From a virus, in the IMG/VR virus record IMGVR_UViG_3300024262_001471, positions 1 to 31,464 of that record: a stretch of 31,464 bases of DNA; one strand, given 5' to 3'. Position 1 is the stretch's first letter; each line of letters begins with the position of its first letter. The translations under genes and the position numbers were made by a program. This document shows, in pieces, positions 3,971 through 28,436 of the stretch. The notes below the pieces were generated by a model. The model was not told the DNA's origin, did no database searches, and saw only the letters and a program-made list of their open reading frames with translations.

Positions 3971-4019
3971 GGATTTTGAAGAGTTACCTACGGAAGATGA
4001 CCTTAACTGGGAGGAATAA
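3960..4019 (+). CDS. Possible 19-residue acidic mini-ORF at the end of nrdJ
   Basis: A GTG at 3960 opens a 19-codon frame that ends with TAA at 4017-4019 and fills the otherwise empty gap between nrdJ and the next gene. A perfect AAGGAGG box at 3948-3954 sits 5 bases before the GTG. The predicted peptide is extremely acidic (VDPEDFEEL... ending NWEE). The same purine-rich bases also encode the C-terminal redox-cysteine segment of NrdJ, so the ribosome-binding site may be a by-product of that coding sequence. It could be a real micropeptide or chance. The frame is +1 relative to nrdJ. Confidence 0.25.
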   Translation: MDPEDFEELPTEDDLNWEE

Positions 4020-4021
4020 TT

Positions 4022-8452: not shown

Positions 8453-8487
8453 AGGAAGGCATCTATCTTGGGTGTCTTCCTATTTTT
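8453..8487 (+). terminator. Rho-independent terminator after the replication block
   Basis: AGGAAGGCATC at 8453-8463 pairs with GGTGTCTTCCT at 8471-8481 over all 11 positions (two G-U pairs), with a 7-base loop and a T-rich tail (ATTTTTATA) directly after. It separates the lipoprotein gene from the glycan island and is the clearest intrinsic terminator in the window. Escape or read-through must occur, or another promoter must act, to express the island. Confidence 0.75.
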
Positions 8488-8492
8488 ATACC

Positions 8493-9659: not shown

Positions 9660-10422
9660 ACTAGTAAGTTCGTGGACTCGGCCTGGGGGCGGGACTGTAG
9701 CTCACATAAATCTAACTAATTTGTTAAATGACAATGGGTATGATTGCACCTTTTATGGCCCTCACGATTGGCATCTGGATAAGTGTAAATCAGATTCCTT
9801 AGATAAGTGCATTTTAGGGCCTGACGATATTTTGATTAGCCATTACATTAATGTCCCTGATGAAGTTAAAGTTAAACAGCATATTCTGTATTGTCACGAA
9901 AAAGAGGTCTTTCCACTTAAACAGGTTCCTCTGGCGCAGTACGATTTAATCGTATTTGTAAGTAATCTTCAAAAGGAGTGGCAGGGGGTTGATCACCCCT
10001 CTGTAATTATTCCTCCCGCAGTCAATAAGGTAGAATGGGAGAATCCCAATAATAAGGTCGCAGGAGTGATAGGCAGCATTGATTATAATAAGCAAACTCA
10101 CAAATCTATCAAAAGAGCGTTGAAGGATGGTTACAAGAAAGTACTTCTTTTTGGAGAGCTAAATGATACTCCCTATTATAATAAGACAGTGGCTAAATTA
10201 GTGAGATCAGGCAAGGCTGTTATGATGGGGCATGAGGACGAGCGAGAGGCTCTGTACGGGCAAGTAAGCGAAGTCTACCATTCCTCCCTTAGTGAAACCT
10301 ACGGGCTCGTAGAGGCCGAGTGTAGGCTCTCTGGGATACCCTTCAATGGGACCAGTAATGGACAAGAGATTTTGGAAAAAGAGGAGATTTTAGAAAAATG
10401 GAAAAAAGTACTGCATCAGTAA
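9640..10422 (+). CDS. Glycosyltransferase, GT-B fold (GT4-like)
   Basis: A 260-residue protein starting at a GTG with a GAGGAG box about 8 bases upstream, both within the end of the previous gene. It opens with a Rossmann-like segment containing GGGTVAHINLTNLLNDNG and ends with HSSLSETYGLVEAECRLSG, the acidic donor-binding motif of GT4-type enzymes, followed by FNGTSNGQEILEKEEI. At about two thirds of the length of a full GT-B enzyme it is a compact variant. The order and coupling with neighbouring transferases suggest successive sugar additions to one glycan. Donor and acceptor cannot be read from sequence. Confidence 0.75.
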   Translation: MSKSKVKLVSSWTRPGGGTVAHINLTNLLNDNGYDCTFYGPHDWHLDKCKSDSLDKCILGPDDILISHYINVPDEVKVKQHILYCHEKEVFPLKQVPLAQYDLIVFVSNLQKEWQGVDHPSVIIPPAVNKVEWENPNNKVAGVIGSIDYNKQTHKSIKRALKDGYKKVLLFGELNDTPYYNKTVAKLVRSGKAVMMGHEDEREALYGQVSEVYHSSLSETYGLVEAECRLSGIPFNGTSNGQEILEKEEILEKWKKVLHQ

Positions 10423-11105
10423 CAGTTATTTGTTCGAATTATAATTCCGCTAAATGGATTGATGGCTATTTACGCAACATTAATAATCAACTTTTAGCCG
10501 AGTTTGATATTATTTTTGTAGATGCCAACTCAACAGATGGCTCTTTACAGACTATAAAGGATGTTCAATTCAGGGAAGGGATCAATAAGACGGTTGTTGA
10601 ATCTGAAAAGAGGATTACCGTTTATGAAGCCTGGAATGATGCTATAAAGATAGCAAAGACTCCATACATCCTTAATTTGAATACTGACGATAGGCTTTAC
10701 CCCACAGGTCTGCTAACTTACTTAAATTACGCTAAGGTTAACCCTTCTGTGGATATATTTTACGGAAGTTGTGTTGTTTGTGAGGACGCAGATCATCAGA
10801 GGATTACAGGCATAAATCAATGGCCCGAGTATAGCCATGAAACCTTGTTGAAAATGTGCATAGGAGGTCCATTCCCAATGGTGAAGAGATCAAGCTTGGT
10901 TGAAGATGGTTTATTTGATCCTTCCTTTTCCATCTCTGGTGATTACGAGATGTGGCTGAGAATGTCTAAAAAGGGTAGAGAGTTTTTCAAGGTGGTTGAA
11001 CCTGTAGGCAGCTATTACAGGAACCCTGAAGGGGTCAGCACCAACCCTGCTGGTATGCCAGAGCATATTAGGCAAGATACGCTTATGCGGGATATGTATA
11101 AATGA
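10398..11105 (+). CDS. Glycosyltransferase family 2 (GT-A fold)
   Basis: A 235-residue inverting-type GT2 protein. The N-terminus VTVICSNYNSAKWIDGYL is the nucleotide-binding strand and loop. FVDANSTDGS is the second conserved block, NLNTDDRLYP carries the metal-binding acidic DxD-type motif, and the C-terminal GDYEMWLRM corresponds to the catalytic-base region (ED/DYEM...R) of GT2 enzymes. The start overlaps the preceding gene by 25 bases, with GAGGAG upstream. It probably adds one residue of the glycan made by this island. Confidence 0.85.
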   Translation: MEKSTASVTVICSNYNSAKWIDGYLRNINNQLLAEFDIIFVDANSTDGSLQTIKDVQFREGINKTVVESEKRITVYEAWNDAIKIAKTPYILNLNTDDRLYPTGLLTYLNYAKVNPSVDIFYGSCVVCEDADHQRITGINQWPEYSHETLLKMCIGGPFPMVKRSSLVEDGLFDPSFSISGDYEMWLRMSKKGREFFKVVEPVGSYYRNPEGVSTNPAGMPEHIRQDTLMRDMYK

Positions 11106-11851
11106 AATATTCTATAGGGATTACGACCTATAAGCATAGGTTTGAAAAATGGTTTAAACCATTGTTAGATCAAATCAAAGAACTCAGACCTGACATTGAA
11201 GTATTAGTCTGCGTTAATGGGGAAAATACTGAGGGTTATGACGAGGACTTCAGGAGGGAATTTTTTGAATACATTTCTACCAAGAGCAATACCTTTGTCA
11301 CTATGTACCCAACCTTTCGAGGTCTTACTAAGATGTGGAATAACCTGCTAATTGATTCTAGCAATCATCAGGTCTTATTATTAAATGATGATATTACCAT
11401 AACGGATGATACCTTTTTCCAGGCCCTGGAAAGTGTTATCCCCCAGGCCCAACTATTTAAGATAAACGGTAGTTGGAGTCATGCCCTCTTCGATAGGAGG
11501 CTTGTAAACGATATAGGTTGGTTTGATGAGAGGTACTTAGGAATTGGGGAAGAGGATGGGGATTTTGAGTGGAGGTTAGGAAGCAAAACAGGGGGTCAGA
11601 TTGTAGCTAATATAAACCTTCCAGGCGTAATTAATCATGTTGATCATACGGATTGTTTAGAGGGGATGAGAAAAACAAACGGAAAGTACTCTCAGTTTAA
11701 TTTTGATTTTGCGTTCTCTAAGAAATATAGAATAGACGAGGGGATCGGAGAGAACTACGGTATAATGAATAGGAGAGTAGTGTGTGATAGTCCAACTCCT
11801 CCCCTCCACACTACCGAATCGTTCTACTGGGAAAATAGGGATAAACTATGA
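11102..11851 (+). CDS. Glycosyltransferase family 2-like (GT-A fold)
   Basis: A 249-residue protein beginning at an ATGA overlap with the previous stop. MKYSIGITTYKHRFEKWF and VLVCVNGENTEGYDEDF fit the start of a GT2 domain. YPTFRGLTKMWNNLL and LLLNDDITITDD provide the acceptor-side helix and the acidic metal site, and WFDERYLGIGEEDGDFEWRL matches the GT2/GT27-like segment with the catalytic acidic residues. It should use an NDP-sugar donor; specificity is unknown. Confidence 0.75.
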   Translation: MKYSIGITTYKHRFEKWFKPLLDQIKELRPDIEVLVCVNGENTEGYDEDFRREFFEYISTKSNTFVTMYPTFRGLTKMWNNLLIDSSNHQVLLLNDDITITDDTFFQALESVIPQAQLFKINGSWSHALFDRRLVNDIGWFDERYLGIGEEDGDFEWRLGSKTGGQIVANINLPGVINHVDHTDCLEGMRKTNGKYSQFNFDFAFSKKYRIDEGIGENYGIMNRRVVCDSPTPPLHTTESFYWENRDKL

Positions 11852-12657
11852 ATAACATCTGTTTTATTATTGCACATAAGTATTTCAGAGGATACGAATC
11901 TTACTTAAAATATTATATTGATAATATCCAAGAGTTGTATCCAGAAGCGTTGACCGTTGTTGTTGATAACAATTCAAAGTATAAAGATGATATATTTTCC
12001 CAGCTTGAAAACTTAGAGAATGTTGTTCTTTTGGATAATAACAGCGACTCAAAGTTTGAACTAGGGGCTTATCGAGTTGGTTTAAAGTACATCTTAGATA
12101 ATAATCTTAATAATGATTATGAATATTTTGTATTTACGCAGGATAATTTTGTACTCAAGAATAAATACAACTTCAAAGCTATGAAGGATGAGTTGTGCTT
12201 TGCAAGACCGATAAACTCCATGTACGCAGATGGGGAGATTACTGATGTTGTGATTCCCGTTATGACAAAACTTGGTCTTAACGATAGTTGGGATAAAGTT
12301 AACTTCTGTTGGTGTAGTAGCTTTATTGTCGAAAAAACTAAGATTGAACAACTTTACAACTACCTAGACCAAATCAAAGTTATTAGTCGCTGGGAAAGTT
12401 GCGCTGGAGAAAGATATTTGGCAAGGATCCTTTGGGAATTAAATGAACACAATGATTGTGGTGATATTGATGGCAACCAATCAGATCTACCAGTTAGGCA
12501 TTACGATACCTGGAATGTTAATGTTTTTGCCCCATCAACCTCTTACTTTGTTAAGAAAGTTCAACAGAAGAATGAGAATACAGTAGATAAAGATACCGCA
12601 CAACCTATCATTTTTGTTCCACACAAGGAAAACAAAAATGATCATTACAGAGGATAA
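11848..12657 (+). CDS. Probable GT-A-type glycosyltransferase
   Basis: A 269-residue protein overlapping the previous gene by four bases. The N-terminus ICFIIAHKYFRGYESYL and VVVDNNSKYKDD resemble the first two blocks of a GT-A nucleotide-binding domain, and YFVFTQDNFVLKN sits where the DxD motif usually lies (QDN here). WCSSFIVEKTKI and GERYLARIL would be the acceptor side. The classical DxD is not perfect, so this is a divergent member or a relative of capsule glycosyltransferases. The A/T-rich codon use is stronger than in the replication genes. Confidence 0.55.
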   Translation: MNNICFIIAHKYFRGYESYLKYYIDNIQELYPEALTVVVDNNSKYKDDIFSQLENLENVVLLDNNSDSKFELGAYRVGLKYILDNNLNNDYEYFVFTQDNFVLKNKYNFKAMKDELCFARPINSMYADGEITDVVIPVMTKLGLNDSWDKVNFCWCSSFIVEKTKIEQLYNYLDQIKVISRWESCAGERYLARILWELNEHNDCGDIDGNQSDLPVRHYDTWNVNVFAPSTSYFVKKVQQKNENTVDKDTAQPIIFVPHKENKNDHYRG

Positions 12658-12660
12658 TTC

Positions 12661-13437
12661 ATGCCTAGAATGTTTGCTATTTGTGGGGACTCTGGAAGTG
12701 GAAAAACAACTATGGCTGCTATCCTCGATAACTACCTAACTAATTCTACTATCCATGAGTGTGATAGGTATCATAAATGGGAACGAGGAGACACGCATTG
12801 GGATAAGTTTACTCATTTGAATACCTCCGCTAATCATATATCATGGATGATTAATGATGCTGTGGAATTGAAAGCAGGAAATGACATTTTCTGTAGAGAC
12901 TACGACCATAAAACGGGGAAGTTTACAGAGGCTAAAGAGATAAGATCCTGTGAGAACATTATACTATGTGGCCTTCATACTTTTTATTGTCCTGAGGATA
13001 TGTTTATTTTGAAAATCTTTATGGACACTGCTGATGATCTGAAGACTCAATGGAAGATTTCCAGGGATACCAGTAAACGAGGACACTCCACTAAAACAGT
13101 AAAAGATCAAATACTTCGCCGTAAAGAGGATTATACAAAGTATCTCCAACCCCTTATTGAACAGGCGGACATCATAGTTAATTTTTGTAATGAGAAAGAT
13201 ACAGACCGTATTGATTCTGTGAAGGGTATCGGTAGGAGACTAGAATTATTTATAAAAGAACCTTATGATACCACTACTATTGTTAGAAAGTTTAAGGATA
13301 TTGGAGTGAGTACAGACCATCCTATTTCAAGCAGAGAAGGTTACACACAGATTAGTATAAAAAACTATAAGAAATTAGACAAGAATTATTACTATGATTA
13401 TGTTATGCTTTGTATTCAGGATATGATAGCAATATGA
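12661..13437 (+). CDS. Phosphoribulokinase/uridine kinase-family P-loop kinase
   Basis: A 258-residue P-loop kinase with Walker A GDSGSGKTT at residues 9-17. CDRYHKWERG (about 34-43) matches the substrate-side D-x-YH block of phosphoribulokinase, FCRDYDHKTGKF (about 77-88) the conserved IYNH-TG segment, and LKTQWKISRDTSKRGHS (127-143) with RRKEDYTKYLQP (153-164) the R-D...RGHS...RK-D-Y-P block that is closer to phosphoribulokinases than to ordinary uridine kinases. The likely reaction is ATP-dependent phosphorylation of a sugar, sugar phosphate or nucleoside. The true substrate is unknown. The next gene is a class II aldolase and the one after a HAD phosphatase, so it may serve a sugar-phosphate side pathway. 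A GAGGATAA box precedes the ATG. Confidence 0.7.
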   Translation: MPRMFAICGDSGSGKTTMAAILDNYLTNSTIHECDRYHKWERGDTHWDKFTHLNTSANHISWMINDAVELKAGNDIFCRDYDHKTGKFTEAKEIRSCENIILCGLHTFYCPEDMFILKIFMDTADDLKTQWKISRDTSKRGHSTKTVKDQILRRKEDYTKYLQPLIEQADIIVNFCNEKDTDRIDSVKGIGRRLELFIKEPYDTTTIVRKFKDIGVSTDHPISSREGYTQISIKNYKKLDKNYYYDYVMLCIQDMIAI

Positions 13438-14096
13438 AGTGGGAACTAAAAAATTTAGGTGAGGAGTTGTCCAGATTTGTCGTAGGTACAGAGGGAAATA
13501 TCTCAAAACGAACTGCTGATGGGTTTAGGATCAAGGCTAGTGGAGTTTCTCTAAAATATATGGATGAGGATTCATGTGTTGCGTGTACCTTAGATGGAGA
13601 TCCTATGGAGGGAGAGGTCAATAGACCTAGTATGGAGTGGAGCTTTCATTCGTGGATATTTAAGAACTCTACTTATCAAATAATCGCCCACACCCACCCA
13701 ACAAACACTCTAAAGATTCTATGTACTGATAACTTAATACATGAGTTTGCTACTAAGCGGTTATTTCCTGATCAGGTAGTGTTTAACGGGGAGGAAGCGT
13801 GTGTGGTTCCCTACGCTACCCCTGGACTGGAACTAACACAAGAAATACAGGATGCGGTTGGAGAATATATGATTCTTCGTGGAGAGTTTCCAAAGCTATT
13901 ATTATTAAAAAATCATGGGATAATTTGCTGTGCAAATACAGCCAAGGAAGCTATCATAATAACAGAGGTATGTGAGAAAGCAGCGGAGATATTTATAGGA
14001 TCTAAATCCCTGCACTCGGTTGATTTTCTCACGGATAAAGAAGTGAGGAGCATTATGGATCACGAAGATGAGAAATATAGGAGAAAATTAGTATGA
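13434..14096 (+). CDS. Class II aldolase/adducin-family protein
   Basis: A 220-residue protein of the FucA/AraD family. TEGNISKR (19-26) and IKASGVSLKYM form the phosphate-binding loops. RPSMEW gives E68, the position of the catalytic glutamate. AHTHP supplies zinc ligands H86 and H88, and LLLKNHGII supplies H161. The family includes L-fuculose- and rhamnulose-phosphate aldolases, ribulose-5-phosphate 4-epimerase and methylthioribulose-phosphate dehydratase; the zinc site and glutamate are intact, so activity is plausible. The ATG at 13434 forms an ATGA overlap with the kinase stop and is preferred to the in-frame TTG at 13410. Its partnership with the kinase suggests turnover or synthesis of a ketose phosphate or aldehyde unit for the glycan. 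Confidence 0.8.
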   Translation: MKWELKNLGEELSRFVVGTEGNISKRTADGFRIKASGVSLKYMDEDSCVACTLDGDPMEGEVNRPSMEWSFHSWIFKNSTYQIIAHTHPTNTLKILCTDNLIHEFATKRLFPDQVVFNGEEACVVPYATPGLELTQEIQDAVGEYMILRGEFPKLLLLKNHGIICCANTAKEAIIITEVCEKAAEIFIGSKSLHSVDFLTDKEVRSIMDHEDEKYRRKLV

Positions 14097-14401
14097 TTAT
14101 ATATGTTGACATTGATGAGACGATTTGTTTCTATGAGGAAGAAATTGCTTTAGACGGCAAGAAGGATTATAACACAGCTATCCCTAGTTCAGAGAATATA
14201 GCAAAAGTTAATAAGCTATATGATGAAGGAAATACTATTATCTTCTGGACAGCGAGGGGGAGTAGGAGTGGGATAGACTGGACAGAATTTACAAAAAACC
14301 AATTGTCTGGGTGGGGAGTAAAGTTCCATGAGGTACGGTGTGATAAACCATACTACGATCAGTTCGTAGAAGATAGAAGTATAAGGATTGAGGAATTATA
14401 A
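14093..14401 (+). CDS. HAD-like phosphatase (capsule-cluster type)
   Basis: A compact 102-residue HAD-fold protein. The nucleophile motif DIDETI near the N-terminus (D6, D8) and WTARG (motif II) are clear. QLSGWGVKFHEVRCDKPYYD supplies the motif III lysine, and FVEDRSI replaces the usual motif IV DDR by EDR. Small HAD proteins of this kind occur in capsule and surface-glycan clusters of bacteria and phages and probably dephosphorylate a sugar phosphate. It overlaps the aldolase by four bases. The missing cap domain suggests a bulky or protein-bound substrate, as inference only. Confidence 0.75.
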   Translation: MIIYVDIDETICFYEEEIALDGKKDYNTAIPSSENIAKVNKLYDEGNTIIFWTARGSRSGIDWTEFTKNQLSGWGVKFHEVRCDKPYYDQFVEDRSIRIEEL

Positions 14402-15025
14402 ATGAGCTACGATGATATTCACAGAGAGAATAGAGATGCCTTGGTTGAAAAGAATAAAGCATTTCTAGTTGATAAAGTCTTCCTTGAGTTTGGGGTATGT
14501 CGTGGGACCTCTATGGCTATGTGGCTAGAAGCGTACTCCAAGAATGAAGTACCTGAACACTTCCTTGGGTTTGACTCCTTCCAAGGGCTCCCAGAAGAGA
14601 CTGAGGACGAGAACTCTATCTGGCATACGGGAGAGTTTAGTACTGGAGGTGTGATCCCTACTCACCTTACCCAGGGCCGTAATGTTAAGTTTGTCGAAGG
14701 GTTCTATGAGGACTCTCTTACTGATGATGCTGTTGCTTTGCTTGAGGGGAAGAAGGTAGGTCTTATCCATATGGATTGTGATACCTACTCTTCCACTAAG
14801 ACAGTATGGGAATGGCTTATCAAGCATGATCTTCTAGCCAAAGGAGCTTTGGTAGTTTATGATGATTGGGGCTGCTATCTTGAAGCTGACTGTGGTGAAT
14901 ATGAAATTGGAGAGGCTAAGGCTCACGCAGAGATTGAAAAAACCCATGACCTTAGCTTTGTTGAGTTGGGTAGGTATATCGTTGATCCTAAGTTCTATGA
15001 AGTAACCATATTTAGATATGTATAA
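14402..15025 (+). CDS. TylF/macrocin O-methyltransferase-family methyltransferase
   Basis: A 207-residue class I SAM methyltransferase. VFLEFGVCRGTSMAMW is the SAM-binding motif I, HFLGFDSFQGLPEE motif post-I, and GLIHMDCDTYSSTKTVWEWL with ALVVYDDW the metal-binding acidic block typical of TylF-type sugar O-methyltransferases. It probably methylates a hydroxyl of a sugar in the glycan built by the surrounding enzymes. It starts one base after the upstream stop and overlaps the next gene by eight bases. Confidence 0.85.
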   Translation: MSYDDIHRENRDALVEKNKAFLVDKVFLEFGVCRGTSMAMWLEAYSKNEVPEHFLGFDSFQGLPEETEDENSIWHTGEFSTGGVIPTHLTQGRNVKFVEGFYEDSLTDDAVALLEGKKVGLIHMDCDTYSSTKTVWEWLIKHDLLAKGALVVYDDWGCYLEADCGEYEIGEAKAHAEIEKTHDLSFVELGRYIVDPKFYEVTIFRYV

Positions 15026-15926
15026 ACTAGATACTTTTTCTATTAACACCTACCCTCATGCTTTTTACATTGTCCATAATGGTGGAGGATGTGCCTTCGA
15101 AAGTAACAGGCTTTTCATTAAAGAATCTAATGATAATGCTTACCTAATCTCTGGGAACCTTGATGTTCCTGTAGTAAGTTATACACAGCAAGTAGTAGTA
15201 GAAGAAGATGTAATCCCTATTATAACTGCATTCCCCACAGGAGTACATGCCTATGTTGGAATCTTATCAATCCTTCTAAATTACTTTGATAACAAAGTAT
15301 TACTTCAAGGTAAAAAACTCCTCCTGTATAAGAATACACAGGCTGGTATCCTTGAGATCATAAACCATTTAGTATCTGAGAAAAAACTGAATGAGTCTGA
15401 CATACTTTATGCGGACCCAGAGGTGCTATACCAGTTTAAATCTGTAACCTTGATCCCCAACACCCTCCACAGCTATTTCGAGGATGAGACTATCAGAGAC
15501 TCCATTTCAGATTTTGTTTCTGATTACCTTAAAGAAGAGAAGCCTACTTCTTTAGATAATATATCAATCCTAAAGCATTTTGGGTCTGGGGTAACTTCCA
15601 ATATGGGTGCTATAGAATATGAGGTAGCTAAGGCGTTCTCGCACAGCATGGGGTATTGGCTAGTGGAACCTAAAGAGGTGGGAGAGCTTAAGGTAATAAA
15701 CTACTTAAGCAATGCAACTAGAGTTCTTTTCTCTTGGGGAACTACCTTTATGAAGAACTTTGTCTATGTATCGGATACATGTACTAAGATTGATGTGCTG
15801 GTCTTCGGAAGTTCCTTTAGGTATGAGTATGATAACGCAGTCTCCAGAGGCATCTTACCTCATACATTTAAGAATGCTACTATTCACTACCATTTAGACC
15901 CTGACCTTACAACCCTAACCATTTAG
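15018..15926 (+). CDS. Possible GT61-like glycosyltransferase
   Basis: A 302-residue protein of uncertain family. The C-terminal half has the order GAIEYEVAKAFSH, WLVEPKEVGELKVINYL, then SNATRVLFSWGTTFMKNFVYVS, which resembles the GT61/DUF563 pattern in which a helix after the conserved 'E...E' precedes an 'A..i.g.hGA...N..f' segment. The N-terminal half (HNGGGCAFESNRLFI) could be the acceptor domain. The GT61 call rests on this pattern and on its place among glycan genes. It could also be another glycan-modifying enzyme. Confidence 0.45.
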   Translation: MYKLDTFSINTYPHAFYIVHNGGGCAFESNRLFIKESNDNAYLISGNLDVPVVSYTQQVVVEEDVIPIITAFPTGVHAYVGILSILLNYFDNKVLLQGKKLLLYKNTQAGILEIINHLVSEKKLNESDILYADPEVLYQFKSVTLIPNTLHSYFEDETIRDSISDFVSDYLKEEKPTSLDNISILKHFGSGVTSNMGAIEYEVAKAFSHSMGYWLVEPKEVGELKVINYLSNATRVLFSWGTTFMKNFVYVSDTCTKIDVLVFGSSFRYEYDNAVSRGILPHTFKNATIHYHLDPDLTTLTI

Positions 15927-15931
15927 AGGCT

Positions 15932-16372
15932 ATGAGAATAATATCACACAGAGGAAATATTGAGGGACCTATTCCTGAGAAAGAAAACTGCCCAGAGTAC
16001 ATTAATAGTGCGCTTGCACAAGGTTTTGATGTCGAAGTAGATGTATGGTGGCTTCAAGGCCTTTTTTTAGGTCATGATGGTCCTGAATACACAATCTCTA
16101 AAGAGTGGCTGCTGGACCGAAAAGATCATTTATGGGTTCATTGTAAGAACTTAGAGGCAGCGCATCACTTAGCCAAGGAGTTCAGGTGTTTTTGTAGTGA
16201 CATTGACCCATACTGCTTCATGAGCCAAGGACACATATGGGTAAATGATGTAATTGTAAAACCACCACAAAACTGTGTGGTTCCTTTATTAGGTCTTGAA
16301 GATATACACAGTTATAAGTTTAAGGACGCAGCCTTCGCCATCTGCACAGATTACCCCCTAGAATTATTATGA
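15932..16372 (+). CDS. Short GDPD-like phosphodiesterase
   Basis: A 146-residue protein with the glycerophosphodiester phosphodiesterase signature: ISHRGN near the N-terminus (H6, R7), ENCPEYINSALAQGFDVEVDVWW with the E-x-D metal ligands, and LFLGHDGPEY supplying the second histidine. At about 60% of the length of a typical enzyme it covers only the catalytic front half of the barrel, a variant found in other glycan clusters. It may hydrolyse or trim phosphodiester-linked substituents. An AGAGG box lies just upstream. The residues are visible; the substrate is inferred only from context. Confidence 0.7.
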   Translation: MRIISHRGNIEGPIPEKENCPEYINSALAQGFDVEVDVWWLQGLFLGHDGPEYTISKEWLLDRKDHLWVHCKNLEAAHHLAKEFRCFCSDIDPYCFMSQGHIWVNDVIVKPPQNCVVPLLGLEDIHSYKFKDAAFAICTDYPLELL

Positions 16373-17883
16373 AGAATATCCAATTAGTTATCCCTATGGC
16401 GGGAAGTAGTGAAATGTTTACAGACGCTGGCTACGCCAGCCCAAAGTGGTTGATTGACATAGATGGAAAGCCTATGATTCAACATGTTGTTGATCAGTTC
16501 CCTGGAGTTACTGATATATTATTTATTTGTAAAGAGGATGATGTGCAAGATCAAAAAACATACGATACATTACATTCCTTGGGTGGTAAAGTAGTTAAGA
16601 TAAAAGAAAGTAGCGGTGGTCCTATGGACACGGTGCTACAAGCTTCCGAATACATATCAGATGATAAGGAGATTATAATTAGTTATTGTGATCATGGTAT
16701 GGTCTGGGAGTGTAGTTCCTTTTTAGAAAAGATTAGGAGTGGGAACTTTGATGGTGCTATGACTGGCTATAGAGAGTTCCATCCCCATATGTTAGGGACA
16801 ACTAATCTATACACTTTTTTATTACAAGAGAACAATAAACTGCTGGAAGTACAAGACAAAGAGCCCTTTACAGAAAGCAGGAAGTCCGAGTTTGTTTCTA
16901 GCGATGTATTCTACTTTAAAACTGGAAGCATTCTAAAAAAATACATGGAGGCTGCTACCCAAGCTCCAGACCAGAATGGATTCCTTGCCTTAGCATACAA
17001 CCTGTTAGTGAAAGACAGTTTGAGTGTGTATATTCATGAGGTTGATAAGATGTTGTTGTGGGCTACACCAGAAGACTTAGAAATTTATAAGCAATGGTTA
17101 AACTACTTCAATCAAAAGTCGGTTGATAAGGCATCAGAGCAAGACTTCACGGTAATTGTTCCCATGTGTGGTAAGGGGAGTAGGTTTGCCAAGGAAGGAT
17201 ATGAACTACCTAAACCCCTACTCCCTATTGGTGATTCACCTATGTTTGCTGGAGTTGTAGACTGCTTACCGAAGCATACTAATAATGTTTTTATCTGTTC
17301 AAAAGAACATAATGCTGATGAGTTAATTAAGAGTTATTATCCCAAAGCAAAGGTTAGAAGTATTGATTTTGTTACTGAGGGATTTGCGGAGTCTTGCGAG
17401 TTAGGGATTGATCTTATTGACGAGGACACACCCATTATGATTTCTCCCTGTGATAATGGGGTTTCCTACGATGAGGAGAGATTTTTGAGGATGATTGCTG
17501 ATGAAGATAATGATGTTATCTTTTGGGTCATTAGAGGTAGCCAATCAACCGAGGTAAATCCAGCCATGTATACTTGGGCATATGTTGATGAGGATAACTA
17601 CTTACTCGATATGGTTTACAAGGAGAAACCTGATAGTGATTTAAAAACCACCCCCGTAAGTATTGGGATCATGTATTTTAGAAAAGCTAAGTATCTTCTA
17701 GAAGGTCTTTCTAAAAATCGTGATCAGAATATAAGACCAACAGGAGAGCTTTGTATGGATAGCGTTGCTCATCAACTTGTAAAAAGTAACTACAAGGTTA
17801 AAGTGTTTGAGGCAGACCATTACGCTTGTTGGGGAACCCCTGATGATTACAAAACTTACAACTTTTGGGAGAGAGCATTTTGA
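16369..17883 (+). CDS. Tandem two-domain sugar nucleotidyltransferase, N-domain degenerate
   Basis: A 504-residue protein made of two consecutive NTP-transferase domains (about 1-245 and 258-504) that align with each other. The C-terminal copy has the canonical PMCGKGSRF loop (265-273), PKPLLPI, and a CDN metal site. The N-terminal copy reads PMAGSSEMF (9-17), PKWLIDI and CDH, so the glycine and the arginine of the GxGxR loop are replaced. Both keep the lysine of the PK motif. The working half probably activates a sugar phosphate as an NDP-sugar. The altered half may be a regulatory, structural or differently specific domain. The ATG overlaps the GDPD stop and the final TGA overlaps the next start. 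Confidence 0.8.
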   Translation: MKNIQLVIPMAGSSEMFTDAGYASPKWLIDIDGKPMIQHVVDQFPGVTDILFICKEDDVQDQKTYDTLHSLGGKVVKIKESSGGPMDTVLQASEYISDDKEIIISYCDHGMVWECSSFLEKIRSGNFDGAMTGYREFHPHMLGTTNLYTFLLQENNKLLEVQDKEPFTESRKSEFVSSDVFYFKTGSILKKYMEAATQAPDQNGFLALAYNLLVKDSLSVYIHEVDKMLLWATPEDLEIYKQWLNYFNQKSVDKASEQDFTVIVPMCGKGSRFAKEGYELPKPLLPIGDSPMFAGVVDCLPKHTNNVFICSKEHNADELIKSYYPKAKVRSIDFVTEGFAESCELGIDLIDEDTPIMISPCDNGVSYDEERFLRMIADEDNDVIFWVIRGSQSTEVNPAMYTWAYVDEDNYLLDMVYKEKPDSDLKTTPVSIGIMYFRKAKYLLEGLSKNRDQNIRPTGELCMDSVAHQLVKSNYKVKVFEADHYACWGTPDDYKTYNFWERAF

Positions 17884-18602
17884 GAACATTCTATAGTCAG
17901 CAGGGGGAAGATTTTTACATCTTCAAAAATCTGATAAATCAACATCGTTCGGATGGAACTTACTTAGAGTTGGGGGCTTGGGATGGTAATGTATATTCTA
18001 ATACGAAGTTTTTTGAGGATGAGTTAACCTTTAGAGGTATTTTGATTGAACCCATCCCTAAAATTTTTAAACATTTATCTTATCACAGGCCAAAAAATAA
18101 GTGCTATAATATGGCAGTTAAAAAAACTATAGGAACAGTAGAATTTCTTGGAGATGAGCCCACCGCTGGAGTCGCAGAAACAATATCGGATACTATGCTA
18201 AAGGCCAATCATAGTACTTCCCAGAAGTATGAAGTTCCTAGTACAACGCTCTCCTCCATATTAGAAGATGCTTCCTGTAAATACTTAGATATGTTTTTTT
18301 TGGATGTTGAGGGAGGAGAGCAAGAGGTGTTAGAGTCCATGAATTGGGATATTCCAGTGTATATTATTTGCGTAGAGCTAGACGGGACTAATTTAGAGAA
18401 GGACTCAGCGTGTAGGGATATTCTTAGTACTAATGGATTCACTTTCATAGAGCGACTATGCTCTAATGAGTTTTGGGTAAACCAACAGTATGAAAGAAAG
18501 GATATTCTTTTTAAAGAGAGTAGGGAGATAATTCAGGGTCAACATCCATATATGGAACCTCATTGCGCCCCTGAGATTTTTGAAAAATGTTACACACAAT
18601 AA
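17880..18602 (+). CDS. FkbM-family methyltransferase
   Basis: A 240-residue SAM-dependent methyltransferase. YLELGAWDGNVYSNTKFFE is the FkbM SAM-binding motif I, ILIEPIPKIFKHL the post-I strand, NMAVKKTIGTVEFLG the typical 'n.Av...g...f' segment and MFFLDVEGGEQEVLESM the conserved acidic motif. It probably O-methylates a sugar. TTG at 17880 is taken as the start because it gives a 4-base stop/start overlap (TTGA) like the ATGA junctions nearby and lies about 6 bases after GGGAGAG. An in-frame TTG at 17865 would add five residues. Confidence 0.85.
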   Translation: MRTFYSQQGEDFYIFKNLINQHRSDGTYLELGAWDGNVYSNTKFFEDELTFRGILIEPIPKIFKHLSYHRPKNKCYNMAVKKTIGTVEFLGDEPTAGVAETISDTMLKANHSTSQKYEVPSTTLSSILEDASCKYLDMFFLDVEGGEQEVLESMNWDIPVYIICVELDGTNLEKDSACRDILSTNGFTFIERLCSNEFWVNQQYERKDILFKESREIIQGQHPYMEPHCAPEIFEKCYTQ

Positions 18603-19501
18603 TTTGTAATGGAAGCACCTTATGTTATGAAAATACTCCAGGGGTTTATACGGGGGAGTACTATTTATATTGCTGTAGACTCTTAGTAGAGGCTATGAAA
18701 GAGTGTTCCAATAAGATTAATATAATTATAGGACCCTATCACTATACTTTTGACAATAACAATCCTGTGGTTAGATTAGATATTCAACCAGAACATACCC
18801 TAGTCAAGTCAGGAGGTAGATCGGTTTCTGAACCTATTATGGGTAGTACTCTAACCAAGGATGATAAAGAAACTTATCTTGTGAGGATAGACAAGTTTGA
18901 TTATTATAAAAGTTTAGATGGGGTAATTGAATATAGCATCCCAAACATTATTAATATGCATACCTGCTCTAATGAGGAAATTGCTCAGTTCGCAAAAAAA
19001 TGTAGATATATCGCCCCTCTTATTTACGAGACAGATAGATTAGAAAATAATGAAAGATCAGGAGTATTTACGCTCTTCTCTTTAGGAAGTAGCTTTAGGA
19101 GAGAGGTGTTTCACAAATCTACAGGGATAGAAAATATCTCTGGAGTGTTTTGTCCTGCTAAATTGGCCGAGCTATACTATAATAAAGCAATCATGGTTAA
19201 TATCCACCAGACCGATCATCACCACACCTTTGAGGAATTAAGGGTATTACCTGCATTATCCCAGGGTGTGGTTGTGGTTTCTGAGGACTCTCCGTTAAAA
19301 GAACATATCCCTTATTCAGATAGTATTGTTTGGTCAAGCCTTGAGGATATGAATGAGGTTGTTCTTGATGTAGAGAGGAATTACCAAAGCTACAGAGCTA
19401 AACTTTTCACTGAGAAGCTATCTGAAACATTGGATAGGTTGAGACAAAATAATGCAGTTAATATTTCGGAACTAATATGGCAAAACAAAACATCAAACTA
19501 A
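18587..19501 (+). CDS. Probable GT-B glycosyltransferase
   Basis: A 304-residue protein whose C-terminal third has VNIHQTDHHHTFEELRVLPA followed by LSQGVVVVSEDSPLKEHIP and DSIVWSSLEDM. This is the donor-binding half of CgeB/GT1-type transferases (an acidic E-E-L-R...P.L...G..V.SE segment). The N-terminal half has no motif I recognise. Being 304 residues, it is a compact enzyme. It overlaps its neighbours by 16 and 25 bases, so it is part of the same translational chain. Confidence 0.6.
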   Translation: MLHTIICNGSTLCYENTPGVYTGEYYLYCCRLLVEAMKECSNKINIIIGPYHYTFDNNNPVVRLDIQPEHTLVKSGGRSVSEPIMGSTLTKDDKETYLVRIDKFDYYKSLDGVIEYSIPNIINMHTCSNEEIAQFAKKCRYIAPLIYETDRLENNERSGVFTLFSLGSSFRREVFHKSTGIENISGVFCPAKLAELYYNKAIMVNIHQTDHHHTFEELRVLPALSQGVVVVSEDSPLKEHIPYSDSIVWSSLEDMNEVVLDVERNYQSYRAKLFTEKLSETLDRLRQNNAVNISELIWQNKTSN

Positions 19502-20094
19502 GCATCCTGATTTTATCTATACCTAGTAGAATTAGATTTTTGGAAAAGCTAATGTCTAATTTAGAGAAGCAAATTGGGAACAGGCAGGATGTAGAGATAC
19601 TATCCTTAATGGATAACAAGTCGTACAATGTTTCTGATAAGAGAAATGCTATGTTAGCTTTAGCTAGAGGGACACATTTAACTTGGATAGATGATGATGA
19701 TGATGTGGCTAATTCCTATATTGAAAAGATCACAGATGCCATAGAAAAAAACCCGATGGTGGATGTCATATCTTTCGACCAACAATGTTACCTTGATGGT
19801 ATTCCAGCTAAAGTTTTTGCAAAGATGGGAAACCCTCACCAAGACGCTATTCTTGATCCAACTACAGGAGCATATAAAGATATTCTTCGACCCCCCTACC
19901 ATTGGTGTGTTTGGAGGTCCGAGTTAGCAAAGTCTGAACACTTCCGCTTTGGTGTATTTATGCCAGGATCCCATGTTGGGGAGGATATCGACTGGTTAAA
20001 AAGGCTTTATCCTAAAGTAAAAGACAGCGTTTATTTAGAGGGAGAGCAATTACACATCTACACATACTCCAAGGAGATAAGCGAATCAAAATGA
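19477..20094 (+). CDS. Glycosyltransferase family 2 (GT-A fold)
   Basis: A 205-residue GT2 protein. LSILILSIPSRIRFLEKLM is the first strand and loop, SDKRNAMLALARGTHLTWIDDDDDV the conserved helix and metal-binding acidic motif (five aspartates in a row), and PGSHVGEDIDWLKRL the catalytic acidic block (GED). All hallmarks of an active enzyme are present, though it is short. It precedes the GDP-fucose genes and overlaps the first by four bases, so a fucosyl or rhamnosyl-type transfer is an attractive but unproven guess. Confidence 0.8.
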   Translation: MAKQNIKLSILILSIPSRIRFLEKLMSNLEKQIGNRQDVEILSLMDNKSYNVSDKRNAMLALARGTHLTWIDDDDDVANSYIEKITDAIEKNPMVDVISFDQQCYLDGIPAKVFAKMGNPHQDAILDPTTGAYKDILRPPYHWCVWRSELAKSEHFRFGVFMPGSHVGEDIDWLKRLYPKVKDSVYLEGEQLHIYTYSKEISESK

Positions 20095-20996
20095 AAACAT
20101 TATTAACAGGAGCAGGTGGTTTAGTGGGATCAACCATTAACGCAGACCTAGTAATATCTAATAGATATCAGGTAGATCTAAGAAATTGGGATGCTACCTA
20201 TTACTATTTTGAGGACTTCCAACCAGACGCAGTAATTCATACTGCTGCTAAAGTTGGTGGGTTAGGTGCTAACATGAATCACATGGCTGAGTTCTATCGT
20301 GACAATGTTATGATTAACACTAATGTACTTGAAGCGGCTAGAAGAACAGGAGTGAAGAAAGTTGTATCATTCCTGTCTACCTGCATCTTCCCAGCCTCCG
20401 CACAATACCCCCTTACTGAAGATCAACTTCATAACGGGAAACCTCATGATTCTAATTTCGGTTATGCTCATGCAAAAAGAATGCTAGAGGTTCACAGTAG
20501 GGCCATTGCAACCCAGTATGGTTTAAACTATACTTGTGTCATTCCTACTAATATTTATGGCCCCAATGATAACTTTAACTTAGAGAATAGTCATGTCCTC
20601 CCTGCATTGATTCACAAATGTTACCTAGCAAAGAGGGACAACACAGATTTAGTTGTATGGGGTAGTGGTGAGCCCCTTCGTGAGTTTATCTTCTCAAAGG
20701 ATGTAGGAGAGATTACGAAACTAATCCTTGAGGGTTATGAGGACAAAGAACCTGTGATCCTCTCCACTAGTGAGGAGATTAGTATTAGGGAAGCAGTTGA
20801 GACTATTGCTGATGTTATGGGGTTTGAGGGGAAGCTTATCTTTGATAGTACTAAGCCTGACGGTCAGTATAAAAAGCCTACTTCCAACCGAAGGTTAAGA
20901 AACTTCCTTCCTAAGTATAAGTTCACGCCCTTTAGGGAGGGAATCAAGCAAACTGTTGATTGGTTTGTAGAGAACTATGAGAGTTGTAGAAAATGA
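20091..20996 (+). CDS. fcl: GDP-L-fucose synthase
   Basis: A 301-residue extended SDR protein. The NAD(P) loop GAGGLVGS opens the protein and TAAKVGGLGANMNHMAEFY is diagnostic of GDP-fucose synthase (WcaG/Fcl). The catalytic set described for E. coli Fcl is conserved: S96 and C98 (FLSTCIFP), Y125 and K129 (YAHAK) and H168 (NSHVLPALIH). It catalyses 3,5-epimerisation and NADPH-dependent 4-reduction of GDP-4-keto-6-deoxy-D-mannose. The gene order fcl-gmd is reversed relative to the reaction order. It overlaps gmd by four bases. Confidence 0.93.
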   Translation: MKTLLTGAGGLVGSTINADLVISNRYQVDLRNWDATYYYFEDFQPDAVIHTAAKVGGLGANMNHMAEFYRDNVMINTNVLEAARRTGVKKVVSFLSTCIFPASAQYPLTEDQLHNGKPHDSNFGYAHAKRMLEVHSRAIATQYGLNYTCVIPTNIYGPNDNFNLENSHVLPALIHKCYLAKRDNTDLVVWGSGEPLREFIFSKDVGEITKLILEGYEDKEPVILSTSEEISIREAVETIADVMGFEGKLIFDSTKPDGQYKKPTSNRRLRNFLPKYKFTPFREGIKQTVDWFVENYESCRK

Positions 20997-21955
20997 AAAA
21001 AGCACTAATAACAGGGATTAGTGGGCAGGATGGATCTTACTTAGCGGAACTACTACTGAGTAAGGGATATGAAGTCTGGGGTCTTTTGCGTAGGCACTCC
21101 GTCCCCGAGAATCAAACCAGTAGGCTAGAGGCAATAGGTATCTTAGATGATCTTAATCTAGTGTATGGGGACATGACGGACCTACCCTCCTTACTTCATA
21201 TCTTAAAGGATGTTAATCCTGATGAGATTTATAACCTAGCAGCCCAGTCCCATGTTAGGATTAGCTTTGATCAACCAGCATTCACTACGCATACAGACGC
21301 AGTAGGTGTTCTTAATCTATTAGAAGCTATGAGGCTGATGTGTCCTGACGCTAGGATGTATCAGGCTGGCTCCTCTGAGATGTACGGTAATGAGTGTGAT
21401 GCTGATGGGTATAGGAGAGAGGATACTCTCATGCGCCCTGTGAGTCCGTATGGTTGTGCCAAACTGTATGCTTTTAACCTGTGTAGAACTTACCGCACTT
21501 CCTATGATATGTTTGTTTCTAATGGTATTCTGTTTAACCATGAGTCTCCGAGGAGAGGATTAAACTTTGTTACCAACAAGGTAGTAGATGGTGCAGTTAA
21601 AATTCGTAAAGGTAAGCAGTTGGAGTTAGCCCTAGGTAATCTAAACGCTACTAGAGACTGGGGCCATGCTAAGGATTATGTTAGAGCTATGTGGATGATG
21701 CTACAGCATGATGAGCCTGATGATTTTGTATGTGCTATGGGAGAATCCCACTCTATTAAAGAGTTATGCGCTGAAGTCTTTGGACAAGTAGAGTTGGATT
21801 ATCAGGACCATGTAACTATTGATAGGAAGTACTTTAGACCTACTGAGCTTCATGACCTTAAAGGAGACTCCTCTAAACTTCGCAGAGTTTTGGGGTGGGA
21901 ACCTGAGTATACTTTCCAAGGTATGATTGAAGAGATGGTAGCAGCTAGACTATAA
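20993..21955 (+). CDS. gmd: GDP-mannose 4,6-dehydratase
   Basis: A 320-residue extended SDR enzyme with the NADP loop GISGQDGSYLAELL, the catalytic S/T-E pair in AGSSEMYG, Y-x3-K in PYGCAKLYA, and FNHESPRRGLNFVTNK, a hallmark of Gmd. It turns GDP-D-mannose into GDP-4-keto-6-deoxymannose, the substrate of the upstream Fcl. Both enzymes look complete, so the phage should make GDP-L-fucose in the infected cell provided the host supplies GDP-mannose. It is the last gene of the glycan island; a TATAAT box for the next gene begins in its final codons. Confidence 0.95.
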   Translation: MKKALITGISGQDGSYLAELLLSKGYEVWGLLRRHSVPENQTSRLEAIGILDDLNLVYGDMTDLPSLLHILKDVNPDEIYNLAAQSHVRISFDQPAFTTHTDAVGVLNLLEAMRLMCPDARMYQAGSSEMYGNECDADGYRREDTLMRPVSPYGCAKLYAFNLCRTYRTSYDMFVSNGILFNHESPRRGLNFVTNKVVDGAVKIRKGKQLELALGNLNATRDWGHAKDYVRAMWMMLQHDEPDDFVCAMGESHSIKELCAEVFGQVELDYQDHVTIDRKYFRPTELHDLKGDSSKLRRVLGWEPEYTFQGMIEEMVAARL

Positions 21956-23609: not shown

Positions 23610-23894
23610 ATGATTGATGACAAATTTTACGAAGAACTATCTAGCCTAATCAATGGAGCTTTTGATGGGGTGTATGGCCGCAAAGTCTCTAGCCCTAAAA
23701 TAAGGAAACCTATTATGCAAACTGAAACTATTAAACCCGATCCCAGCAGGGATCATTTCCCCAACCTTTACGAGTCCATTGAGGACTATACTGCCCAGAC
23801 TGGTAAGCGATTCCGCATGACCAAAGAGCAGAAGTCCCGTGAACTCACCCGTGAACAAGCTTTTTCTGAAATGTACTTAGGAGGTACAAACTGA
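23610..23894 (+). CDS. Hypothetical phage protein, 94 aa
   Basis: A 94-residue charged protein with a strong AAAGGAG ribosome-binding site and its own promoter. The N-terminus (DDKFYEELSSLINGAFDGVYG) may form a helix. The C-terminal half (ESIEDYTAQTGKRFRM, then EQKSRELTREQAF) is basic and probably helical, as in small regulatory or DNA-associated proteins. No family is recognised. It is coupled by a one-base overlap to the DUF932 gene. Confidence 0.65.
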   Translation: MIDDKFYEELSSLINGAFDGVYGRKVSSPKIRKPIMQTETIKPDPSRDHFPNLYESIEDYTAQTGKRFRMTKEQKSRELTREQAFSEMYLGGTN

Positions 23895-24679
23895 TGGTAA
23901 TTAAAAACGAAGAACTACTACGAACTTACGCCCCTGCCGCTTTTGCAACAGCACCAGAGGAGGGTAAAGTCTCTGGACGCTACACCTTCCTCCCCACTAC
24001 TGATATCCTTGAGATCCTTCAGGACGAGGGCTGGACTGCTTGGAAGGCCCAACAGGTCCAAGCTAGGAAGTGGAGTCAGGATCACGCCAAGCATATTATC
24101 CGTCTTCGCCATGAAGACATGGATATGCAGTCTTTTGGTGTGGGAGACTCTTTCCCTGAGATGCTGCTTATTAATGCACACAATGGTCTTGGTGGGTATA
24201 CTCTCCAAGGTGGAATCTTCCGCATGGTTTGCTCTAACGGAATGGTGATCTCTGAATCGGACTTCGGTAAGGTTCATATTCGCCACATCGGATTTAAGCC
24301 TGAGCAGGTTGTAAAAGCCTCTAAGCAACTTATTCTGGACTCGTCCCGAATTGCAAGCAAGATTGATAGCTGGCAAGAGACTGAAATGACTCAACGCAGT
24401 CGTAAAGACTTCTTTACTGATGCTGCTAGACTTCGCTTCGATGCGCCTGATGAGGGAATTGTTACTGACATTGCTACCCCTAGGCGAGTAGAAGATCAAA
24501 AAACTGATCTTTGGACTACATTCAATGTAGCACAAGAAAACCTCCTGCGAGGAGGCTTCCGCAACGGTATGACAAATAGAATGGTGCGGCCAATCTCTAA
24601 TATTCAAAAAGATGTGAATTTGAACTCTCAGCTTTGGGACTTGGCCTCTACATATAGTGAGAGCGTAGCTCTCAACTAA
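23894..24679 (+). CDS. DUF932-family protein
   Basis: A 261-residue protein with the hallmarks of DUF932 (phage/plasmid-like protein): YTFLPTTDILEILQDEGW near the N-terminus, then EMLLINAHNGLGGYTLQGGIFRMVCSNGM split across about residues 90-118, with the diagnostic R-x-V-C-x-N-G-M. The family is widespread in phages and plasmids. Its biochemical role is not established. An old-looking A/G hairpin region and the next gene follow. Confidence 0.85.
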   Translation: MVIKNEELLRTYAPAAFATAPEEGKVSGRYTFLPTTDILEILQDEGWTAWKAQQVQARKWSQDHAKHIIRLRHEDMDMQSFGVGDSFPEMLLINAHNGLGGYTLQGGIFRMVCSNGMVISESDFGKVHIRHIGFKPEQVVKASKQLILDSSRIASKIDSWQETEMTQRSRKDFFTDAARLRFDAPDEGIVTDIATPRRVEDQKTDLWTTFNVAQENLLRGGFRNGMTNRMVRPISNIQKDVNLNSQLWDLASTYSESVALN

Positions 24680-26129: not shown

Positions 26130-26298
26130 CCTAGAAATGTCGTGGAAGCCCTTTGGATATCCCTTCACTTATGGGGAGTGGGACGATTTAGTGACATGGT
26201 ATGTTCAAAAAAAGATCTCAAATGCCCTAGATACTAAAGAGGAGAACAATTATGCCCACAACTTACATTCCCAAAAATTCGATTCTTGGCCCCGCTAG
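26119..26298 (+). CDS. Possible small gene filling the gap before the AAA+ operon
   Basis: An ATG at 26119 opens a 59-codon frame ending with TAG at 26296-26298. It covers the otherwise empty 122 bases between two genes, overlaps the upstream gene by 11 bases and the downstream one by 47. An AGGGG box lies about 6 bases before the ATG. The translation (DLEMSWKPFGYPFTYGEWDD, then TWYVQKKISNAL) is rich in aromatic residues and looks protein-like. The long downstream overlap is unusual and lowers confidence. Confidence 0.4.
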   Translation: MISDLEMSWKPFGYPFTYGEWDDLVTWYVQKKISNALDTKEENNYAHNLHSQKFDSWPR

Positions 26299-26590
26299 GG
26301 TCCAGAGGATTGCAAAAAAACTTATTGACGAGGCTGGAGAGGATAGAACCTTAGCCTTAGAAGCCCATAGATTCTTTAGAGCTATGGTAGACGAAAACCC
26401 ACAAGATGCTGCTGCTAAGACCTTAATGGTTGACGCACTCAAGGTTGCCCAGGCATCTAAAAACAATGTGGTAAAAATTCTCAATCTTGTAATCAAGATG
26501 GAAGAAACGACTTCAGACCCAAAAACTAAAGCATCGAAAGGTGCAGGTAACTCGGTATTTAACGAGTTAGATAACCTACTAAATGAGTAA
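26252..26590 (+). CDS. Hypothetical helical protein upstream of the AAA+ unfoldase
   Basis: A 112-residue, mostly alpha-helical protein with a good AGAGGAG ribosome-binding site. RVQRIAKKLIDEAGED, ALEAHRFFRAMVDENPQDAA and TLMVDALKVAQASKNN read as three amphipathic helices, reminiscent of a helical-repeat or adaptor-like fold. It ends eight bases inside the next gene, so it is co-translated with the ClpA/ClpC-like unfoldase and could be its partner or substrate adaptor. That role is inferred from position only. Confidence 0.6.
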   Translation: MPTTYIPKNSILGPARVQRIAKKLIDEAGEDRTLALEAHRFFRAMVDENPQDAAAKTLMVDALKVAQASKNNVVKILNLVIKMEETTSDPKTKASKGAGNSVFNELDNLLNE

Positions 26591-27914
26591 GCAAAAAACC
26601 TATCGTGTTGTATGTTCCGAACTAAACCTAGTACTCTTTGTAAAAGGGTACTCTTTAGCCGAGGAGCAGAAACTTTATACTTCCCTTAGAAACAAAATTC
26701 TCAAAGAAGTGAAGCCTATTAAGGTGGAGGATTACAAAAGCTTTATCGTTAAGAAGTTTTTGATTGATGCTGATGCCTTCTTTGATATGCTAGGAACTGA
26801 TGATGTTCAAGAATTGATAGATGCTGTTGATGCCGCATATAACGCTATCACAGAGTTATATCCTCCCTTCACCCTGGAATTCATTTGCACAGATTTGAAT
26901 ACAGACACCTTCATGGCGGGTGTTCAAAAGAGATTTATAAAGCATCTCAAAGATCAGATCAACCTAAAGCATGAAGAGGGCTCTAGTGTCACCATAACTT
27001 CTATTGAGCAGATTAGGGAACTAGAGGACTATCTCAAAGAGAATATCATTGGACAAAGAAATGCTTTGGACTCGGTGGTGAAGTCTCTTAAACTTATGGC
27101 TTCTGGTTTAGCTGGGCACTCATCCTTTTTGTTTGTTGGCCCTACAGGAGTTGGCAAGACACAAGTAGGTAAGCTGCTTGGAGAGAAGTTTAGTGGTAAT
27201 TTCTATAAGATCAACTGTGCTGAGTATGCAGGGGGACATGAGTATGCCAAGCTGATTGGTTCTCCCCCAGGCTATGTAGGACACACGGAGAAGAGCCTCC
27301 TAGCCGAGAAAGCAGAGCAGTCCAATAGATGGGTGTTCTTGTTCGATGAGATTGAGAAGGCCCACCACAAGCTGTACGACTTCCTCCTGTCCCTGCTAGA
27401 CGATGGCACTTGCACAGATAATATGGGACAGATCTTAGACTTCTCAGAATCAATCTTCATCTTCACCTCCAATCAAGGAGTGGGAGAGATTAACAGGAAC
27501 CCCGTAGGTTTCGCTAAGTCGCCAGAGATCACGCAGGATATTACAGACACTATTATCACAGAGTCAGTTAAAAAACACTTTAATCCTGAGTTTCTGAACC
27601 GAATTGATGAGATCGTTTTGTTCTCCTCTCTTAATAAAGTAGAGGTTAAGAAGATTGCTGAGATCCAACTAGGTATGTTACCCATCAAAGTAACGAAGCC
27701 GCTTGTCGATTTCGTAGTAGAGAAGGGTTACTCCGCTGAGTACGGAGCCAGAAACATTGCAAGGTTTATCAAGAATAATATTACTGATAAGATTGCCGAT
27801 GCTGTTCTGAATAGATTAGTTCCTAAGAAGGACGGAGACTACTTTATGTCTAGGATTGTCAAGGGCGAGGTCAAGATCATAGATACTAAAAAATATAATG
27901 TATCTTCTTCTTGA
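26583..27914 (+). CDS. ClpA/ClpC-type AAA+ unfoldase
   Basis: A 443-residue protein with a single AAA+ module related to the D2 domain of ClpA, ClpC and ClpB. Walker A GPTGVGKT is at residues 186-193, the pore-loop region contains GSPPGYVGH, Walker B VFLFDE is at 251-256, sensor 1 is in FIFTSNQG, and EFLNRIDEIVLF carries the arginine finger. After sensor 1 the motif VGF at 308-310 sits where ClpA (IGL) and ClpC (VGF) have their ClpP-docking loop. The first 150 residues are not a Clp N domain and I do not recognise them. It may unfold proteins, possibly delivering them to host ClpP, since no protease is encoded nearby. Confidence 0.85.
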   Translation: MSKQKTYRVVCSELNLVLFVKGYSLAEEQKLYTSLRNKILKEVKPIKVEDYKSFIVKKFLIDADAFFDMLGTDDVQELIDAVDAAYNAITELYPPFTLEFICTDLNTDTFMAGVQKRFIKHLKDQINLKHEEGSSVTITSIEQIRELEDYLKENIIGQRNALDSVVKSLKLMASGLAGHSSFLFVGPTGVGKTQVGKLLGEKFSGNFYKINCAEYAGGHEYAKLIGSPPGYVGHTEKSLLAEKAEQSNRWVFLFDEIEKAHHKLYDFLLSLLDDGTCTDNMGQILDFSESIFIFTSNQGVGEINRNPVGFAKSPEITQDITDTIITESVKKHFNPEFLNRIDEIVLFSSLNKVEVKKIAEIQLGMLPIKVTKPLVDFVVEKGYSAEYGARNIARFIKNNITDKIADAVLNRLVPKKDGDYFMSRIVKGEVKIIDTKKYNVSSS

Positions 27915-27947: not shown

Positions 27948-28024
27948 GGGGCGGTAGCATACTTAGTAAATGCTCTGATCTTATATGTCAGCGATAGAAG
28001 GTGCAATTCCTTCTCGCCCTACCA
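27948..28024 (+). tRNA. tRNA-Ile, anticodon UAU
   Basis: A 77-base cloverleaf folds by hand: 7-pair acceptor stem (two G-U pairs), D stem GCAT/ATGC, anticodon stem CTGAT/GTCAG, loop CTTATAT with anticodon TAT at 27982-27984, 5-base variable loop, T stem GAAGG/CCTTC with loop TGCAATT, discriminator A and an encoded CCA. It reads AUA, which is frequent in this phage. The D loop (ACTTAGTAA) lacks the usual GG pair that contacts the T loop, so the tRNA is atypical. Confidence 0.85.
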
Positions 28025-28280: not shown

Positions 28281-28357
28281 GGGACGGTAGCCCAATCGGT
28301 AGAGGCATCAGACTTAAAATCTGACAAGTGCGGGTTCGAATCCCGCTCGTCCTACCA
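28281..28357 (+). tRNA. tRNA-Leu, anticodon UAA, short variable loop
   Basis: A 77-base cloverleaf: acceptor GGGACGG/TCGTCCT, D stem GCC/GGC with a loop containing CGGT, anticodon stem TCAGA/TCTGA, loop CTTAAAA with anticodon TAA at 28315-28317, variable loop CAAGT (5 bases), T stem GCGGG/CCCGC with loop TTCGAAT, discriminator A and an encoded CCA. It should read UUA. Bacterial tRNA-Leu normally has a long variable arm, which is missing here. Confidence 0.9.
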
Positions 28358-28359
28358 TT

Positions 28360-28436
28360 GCGCCCTTAGCTCAACTGGATAGAGCAACAAACTTCTAATT
28401 TGTAGGTTTCAGGTTCAAGTCCTGAAGGGCGTACCA
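28360..28436 (+). tRNA. tRNA-Arg, anticodon UCU
   Basis: A 77-base cloverleaf starting two bases after the preceding tRNA: acceptor GCGCCCT/AGGGCGT, D stem GCTC/GAGC, anticodon stem ACAAA/TTTGT, loop CTTCTAA with anticodon TCT at 28394-28396, variable loop AGGTT, T stem TCAGG/CCTGA with loop TTCAAGT, discriminator A and an encoded CCA. It reads AGA, a codon used heavily across this window. Confidence 0.93.

Follow-up and report, generated by a model that had tools for sequence, protein, structure and literature searches.

The DNA analysed here (the window) is an IMG/VR fragment of 31,464 bases and not a whole genome. Its 26583..27914 ORF (+ strand, as are all features given below) encodes a protein of 443 aa, P0001, which was identified as a single-ring AAA+ unfoldase of the ClpA/ClpC D2 type from the ORF itself, its Pfam domains and its sequence matches in the PDB. 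Directly upstream lies a gene for a 112 aa protein (26252..26590), which overlaps the start of the unfoldase gene by 8 bases and whose product is, judging from its sequence, probably helical. The window carries T4-like genes of replication and nucleotide metabolism, which encode an SbcC-like subunit, ribonucleotide reductase, a DnaB-like helicase, a single-strand binding protein, UvsX and dCMP deaminase. Both in the window and in a relative of 129,906 bases (G024), the neighbours of the unfoldase gene are genes for replication, nucleotides and sugars and not for tail proteins. Between UvsX and the unfoldase, a conserved 261 aa phrog_12094 protein is encoded (23894-24679; present in 18 of the compared loci), which we take to resemble DUF932-type proteins. 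Just downstream of the unfoldase gene are tRNA-Ile(TAT) (27948-28024), tRNA-Leu(TAA) (28281-28357) and tRNA-Arg(TCT) (28360-28436); Ile, Asn, Leu and Arg tRNAs occupy the equivalent place in G024. Positions 8472-21955 are filled by a long series of genes for glycosyltransferases, methyltransferases and nucleotide-sugar epimerases, among which several ORFs lack a PHROG match.

Two Pfam domains were matched in the unfoldase with scores over the cut-off: AAA_2 at residues 180-344 and ClpB_D2-small at residues 367-416 (27681..27830), the latter with a sensor-2 GAR motif at residues 388-390. The motor motifs are Walker A GPTGVGKT (residues 186-193; 27138..27161), pore loop 1 GYVG (residues 230-233; 27270..27281), the Walker B region VFLFDE (residues 251-256; 27333..27350) and Arg340 of the NRID motif, a conserved residue at the arginine finger position (27600..27602). 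Walker A and B, pore loop, sensor and Arg motifs are all conserved among the homologues, and the unfoldase is therefore likely to be active. ClpC from Staphylococcus aureus and Bacillus subtilis gave the top PDB sequence matches. In the structure search ClpC taken from ClpC-ClpP assemblies ranked first, closely followed by ClpB and Hsp104, and an NCBIfam scan ranked ClpA above ClpB, both far under their equivalog cut-offs. Unlike full-length ClpA and ClpC, the protein has one AAA+ module, with neither the two-ring build nor Clp_N, and the zinc-binding domain of ClpX was not found by the Pfam scan. It does not fit ClpB or Hsp104 either, since a ClpP-docking tripeptide is present and the AAA+ module is single. 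An earlier note, made from the letters of the window, had placed the ORF at these coordinates with VGF at residues 308-310 and had described a single AAA+ module resembling the D2 domain of ClpA/ClpC; both readings were reproduced, the second by the AAA_2 and D2-small domains and the ClpC matches. In one locus (L222, positions 2700-4200, on the same contig as L252) a homologue of the unfoldase is split over several frames by apparent frameshifts or assembly errors.

The VGF tripeptide (27504..27512) was assigned to the ClpP-docking loop by alignment and by its conservation among homologues. In a phmmer alignment it falls exactly over the VGF of B. subtilis ClpC, as the earlier note had proposed for ClpC. 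ClpA from Escherichia coli has IGL in the same loop; the automatic alignment is gapped there and the register was set by eye. LGF is the corresponding tripeptide of Prochlorococcus ClpC. No docking tripeptide was found in E. coli ClpB or in two Prochlorococcus ClpBs, in agreement with the statement in the same note that ClpB-type disaggregases lack the loop. In an alignment of 36 homologues F310 is invariant (36/36), G309 is kept in 33 and replaced by S in three, and only V, L or M occurs at position 308; of the surrounding loop columns (300-327) most are variable, with entropies of 1.3-3.6 bits, a contrast that exceeds chance. Among 70 distinct homologues the tripeptide reads VGF in 35, LGF in 21, MGF in 10, LSF in three and VGY in one, so that (V/L/M)GF accounts for 66/70. 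The published docking consensus is (L/I/V)-G-(F/L) (PMC8745299), which, taken strictly, does not cover MGF (10/70 homologues). An AlphaFold2 monomer model of the unfoldase has a mean pLDDT of 82, and residues 306-310 fall below 50; the loop is thus predicted to be flexible and not packed, as a mobile docking loop would be. Burial of the triplet in the fold, which the note had named as the finding that would speak against docking, was not seen in this model, and because of the low pLDDT the conservation of the loop is hard to explain by packing.

ClpP was searched for by using the Pfam model PF00574, which a ClpP too divergent for the model would escape. The model found no match in the window, where the earlier note had likewise seen no ClpP, and a wider search gave the same result in 47 records of the family and in further family records (about 50 overall). 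Among them are G024 and G054 (130,604 bases), in which no ClpP was found at E values up to 10. G054 spans the joined ends of G024 and its own ends meet inside G024; the two genomes are circularly permuted relative to each other, and both are therefore essentially complete. ClpP is encoded in three further phage records whose Clps are larger, so some phages supply the protease and the single-ring family does not. These are the records of loci L049, L052 and L071 (G061, G063 and G050), each with both a larger Clp ATPase and ClpP; in L049 the two genes lie about 1.3 kb apart. A literature search by phrase for phage-encoded ClpP returned no matches.

Residues 1-134 (26583..26984) form a phage-specific N-terminal domain, delimited by modelling and by searches. 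The earlier note had held that the first 150 residues are not a Clp N domain; no Clp_N match was obtained there with Pfam, and the boundary of the separate domain lies close to residue 134. For residues 1-134, no Pfam family was seen, no match was obtained in INPHARED and none was found in bacterial genomes. Modelled alone, they gave a confident structure (pLDDT 89.5), a beta-hairpin followed by helices, and in every fetched locus that has this domain it is joined to the motor. Among the structures listed, no fold match was significant (E at least 0.06, Z at most 4.1); several of the weak, non-significant matches are to tail-assembly chaperones or tail proteins. The top one, a tail protein of phiAxp-2, is encoded directly before a 4.8 kb ORF; a tail-assembly chaperone gene usually stands just ahead of the tape measure gene. 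Two other weak matches are not clearly in the chaperone position. The top two VIA matches were the PICI-like ORF19 (Z 4.1) and YqbN (3klu; Z 3.0), which we take to be an XkdN-like tail chaperone. The likeness to tail-assembly chaperones is treated here as a lead only. A relationship to T4 gp26 or gp51 was also considered, and the profile comparison was negative.

The unfoldase family is carried by uncultured, mostly marine tailed phages. When cultured relatives were searched by tblastn in INPHARED, identities stayed below 60 % and nearly all matches covered the AAA+ part alone; the upstream partner gene had no match there. In a tree with a small taxon set (five cellular ClpA, ClpB and ClpC sequences), all 47 single-ring phage proteins cluster with full support on a long branch, apart from cellular ClpA, ClpB and ClpC and from other phage Clps; this tree does not place them inside ClpA or ClpC.

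The 112 aa protein or a remote homologue of it (about 132-136 aa; hhalign E 1.6e-8) is encoded directly upstream of the unfoldase in 43 loci. Across the family, an upstream protein of 104-136 aa is encoded in nearly every unfoldase locus, and in most loci its gene overlaps the start of the unfoldase gene by a few bases. When the search was started from the upstream gene, the unfoldase came next wherever the locus reached far enough. By analogy, the small protein is a candidate adaptor or partner of the unfoldase: ClpS is the adaptor of ClpA, and in E. coli clpS adjoins clpA in a similar arrangement, although nothing suggests homology. Two other identities were tried. A T4-type small terminase (gp16) found no clear support, with no PF11053 match and an hhalign probability of at most 3 %, and comparison with UvsY was negative. 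A second cluster of partner proteins gave a weak match to phrog_322.

Because the docking tripeptide is kept and no ClpP was found in phages of the family, the motor probably borrows a protease from the host. Our preferred reading, to which we assign a probability of roughly 0.6, is that this single-ring phage unfoldase docks on host ClpP and redirects it to selected proteins. The unfoldase would form a hexamer whose conserved (V/L/M)GF loops dock on host ClpP, substrates would be threaded by way of the GYVG pore loops, and the phage-specific N-terminal domain, probably together with the small upstream protein, would choose the proteins delivered to host ClpP. The conservation of the tripeptide is most simply read as docking on host ClpP. 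The earlier note had proposed such a hijack of ClpP, which the computed results support in part: its three observations hold, with the loop retained across the family, no ClpP match even in the essentially complete relatives and a non-Clp N-terminus; the hexamer, direct binding to ClpP, the adaptor role and the substrates are what we infer. A more elaborate version, in which an N-terminal domain of the phage structural-chaperone type has replaced the Clp N-domain and, with a dedicated small adaptor, makes host ClpP phage-programmed, is advanced tentatively and appears rather unlikely in this full form.

Among other readings, the least improbable, though still unlikely, is that the protein works as an unfoldase or chaperone independently of ClpP and remodels phage proteins, for instance in virion assembly, with its N-terminal domain behaving as a tail-assembly chaperone does and the docking loop being inherited or optional. 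The resemblance of the N-terminal domain to tail-assembly chaperones and tail proteins, including those of phiAxp-2 and YqbN, would suit such a role, and a review of jumbo phages notes that phage ClpA and ClpX may aid virion assembly (PMC7824862). Those fold matches are all weak, however, the gp26 and gp51 profiles gave nothing, and the gene is surrounded by replication, nucleotide and sugar genes, not by tail genes; nor would an unused tripeptide be expected to persist in 66/70 homologues.

The same persistence, in phages with no ClpP of their own, would also be accounted for by a decoy that fills the docking pockets of host ClpP, displaces host ClpC or ClpX and so shields phage proteins. Interference of phages with host Clp systems has known precedents, such as SPO1 Gp53 acting on ClpC (PMC6873191), but a passive decoy would need neither Walker A and Walker B nor the pore loop and Arg motif, all of which are conserved here, and we regard it as improbable. 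Slightly less probable again is a structural or hexamer-contact role of the tripeptide unrelated to ClpP: F310 is invariant even where S replaces G309, as such a role might lead one to expect, yet the loop is of low confidence and without defined structure in the monomer model, and the tripeptide both fits the ClpP-docking consensus and stands at the docking position.

With the D2 ring of ClpC and ClpA, as it works in ClpCP and ClpAP, the phage unfoldase shares the AAA+ D2 module, the GYVG motif and a docking tripeptide in the same loop; it differs in having one ring, without Clp_N or the D1 ring, in its long separate branch and in its phage-specific N-terminal domain. ClpX, which uses an IGF-type loop to dock on ClpP, is like the phage protein a single-ring unfoldase; by sequence, however, the phage protein belongs to the ClpA/B/C D2 type, and Pfam found no ClpX zinc-binding domain in it. 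Phage Clp ATPases as such are already known: jumbo phages carry ClpA, ClpX, ClpP and ClpS, and use of host ClpAP has been proposed for phage ClpS (PMC7824862). In contrast to these, the present family is single-ring, belongs to genomes of about 130 kb where complete and without ClpP, and has its own N-terminal domain and a fixed small upstream gene; such a single-ring family in uncultured T4-like phages, with no ClpP found, is new. SPO1 Gp53 is an adaptor-like phage protein that acts on host ClpC (PMC6873191) and is thus also a phage modulator of host Clp, but in the present case the unfoldase itself would come from the phage. If docking on host ClpP is correct, the phage brings the whole selector-and-motor half of a host protease, which goes beyond an adaptor or an inhibitor, and nature has provided a ClpC-type motor of one ring whose recognition domain was exchanged. 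With its two genes the unit is compact and open to experiment, and it could show which proteins it pays to degrade while marine bacteria are being infected.

A possible host is suggested by G054, which is contig QCKN01000003.1 of the single-cell assembly of Prochlorococcus sp. AG-409-P03, the IMG/VR and GenBank entries being copies of one contig; a search of the AG-409-P03 genome located the unfoldase at the same coordinates as in G054. This contig (locus L197), which lies within a Prochlorococcus assembly, is a T4-like phage genome of about 130 kb that is circularly permuted, essentially complete and devoid of psbA. The host link comes from this one assembly, for a relative whose unfoldase protein is about 51 % identical, and psbA, a sign of cyanophages, was not found in the relatives searched; for both reasons a cyanobacterial host is not certain, and the link to Prochlorococcus is suggestive but not firm. 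No ClpP match was obtained within the AG-409-P03 assembly, presumably because the assembly is incomplete. The same assembly encodes ClpC and two ClpBs, and each of the 12 genomes nearest to AG-409-P03 that were searched contains between three and eight ClpP-family matches.
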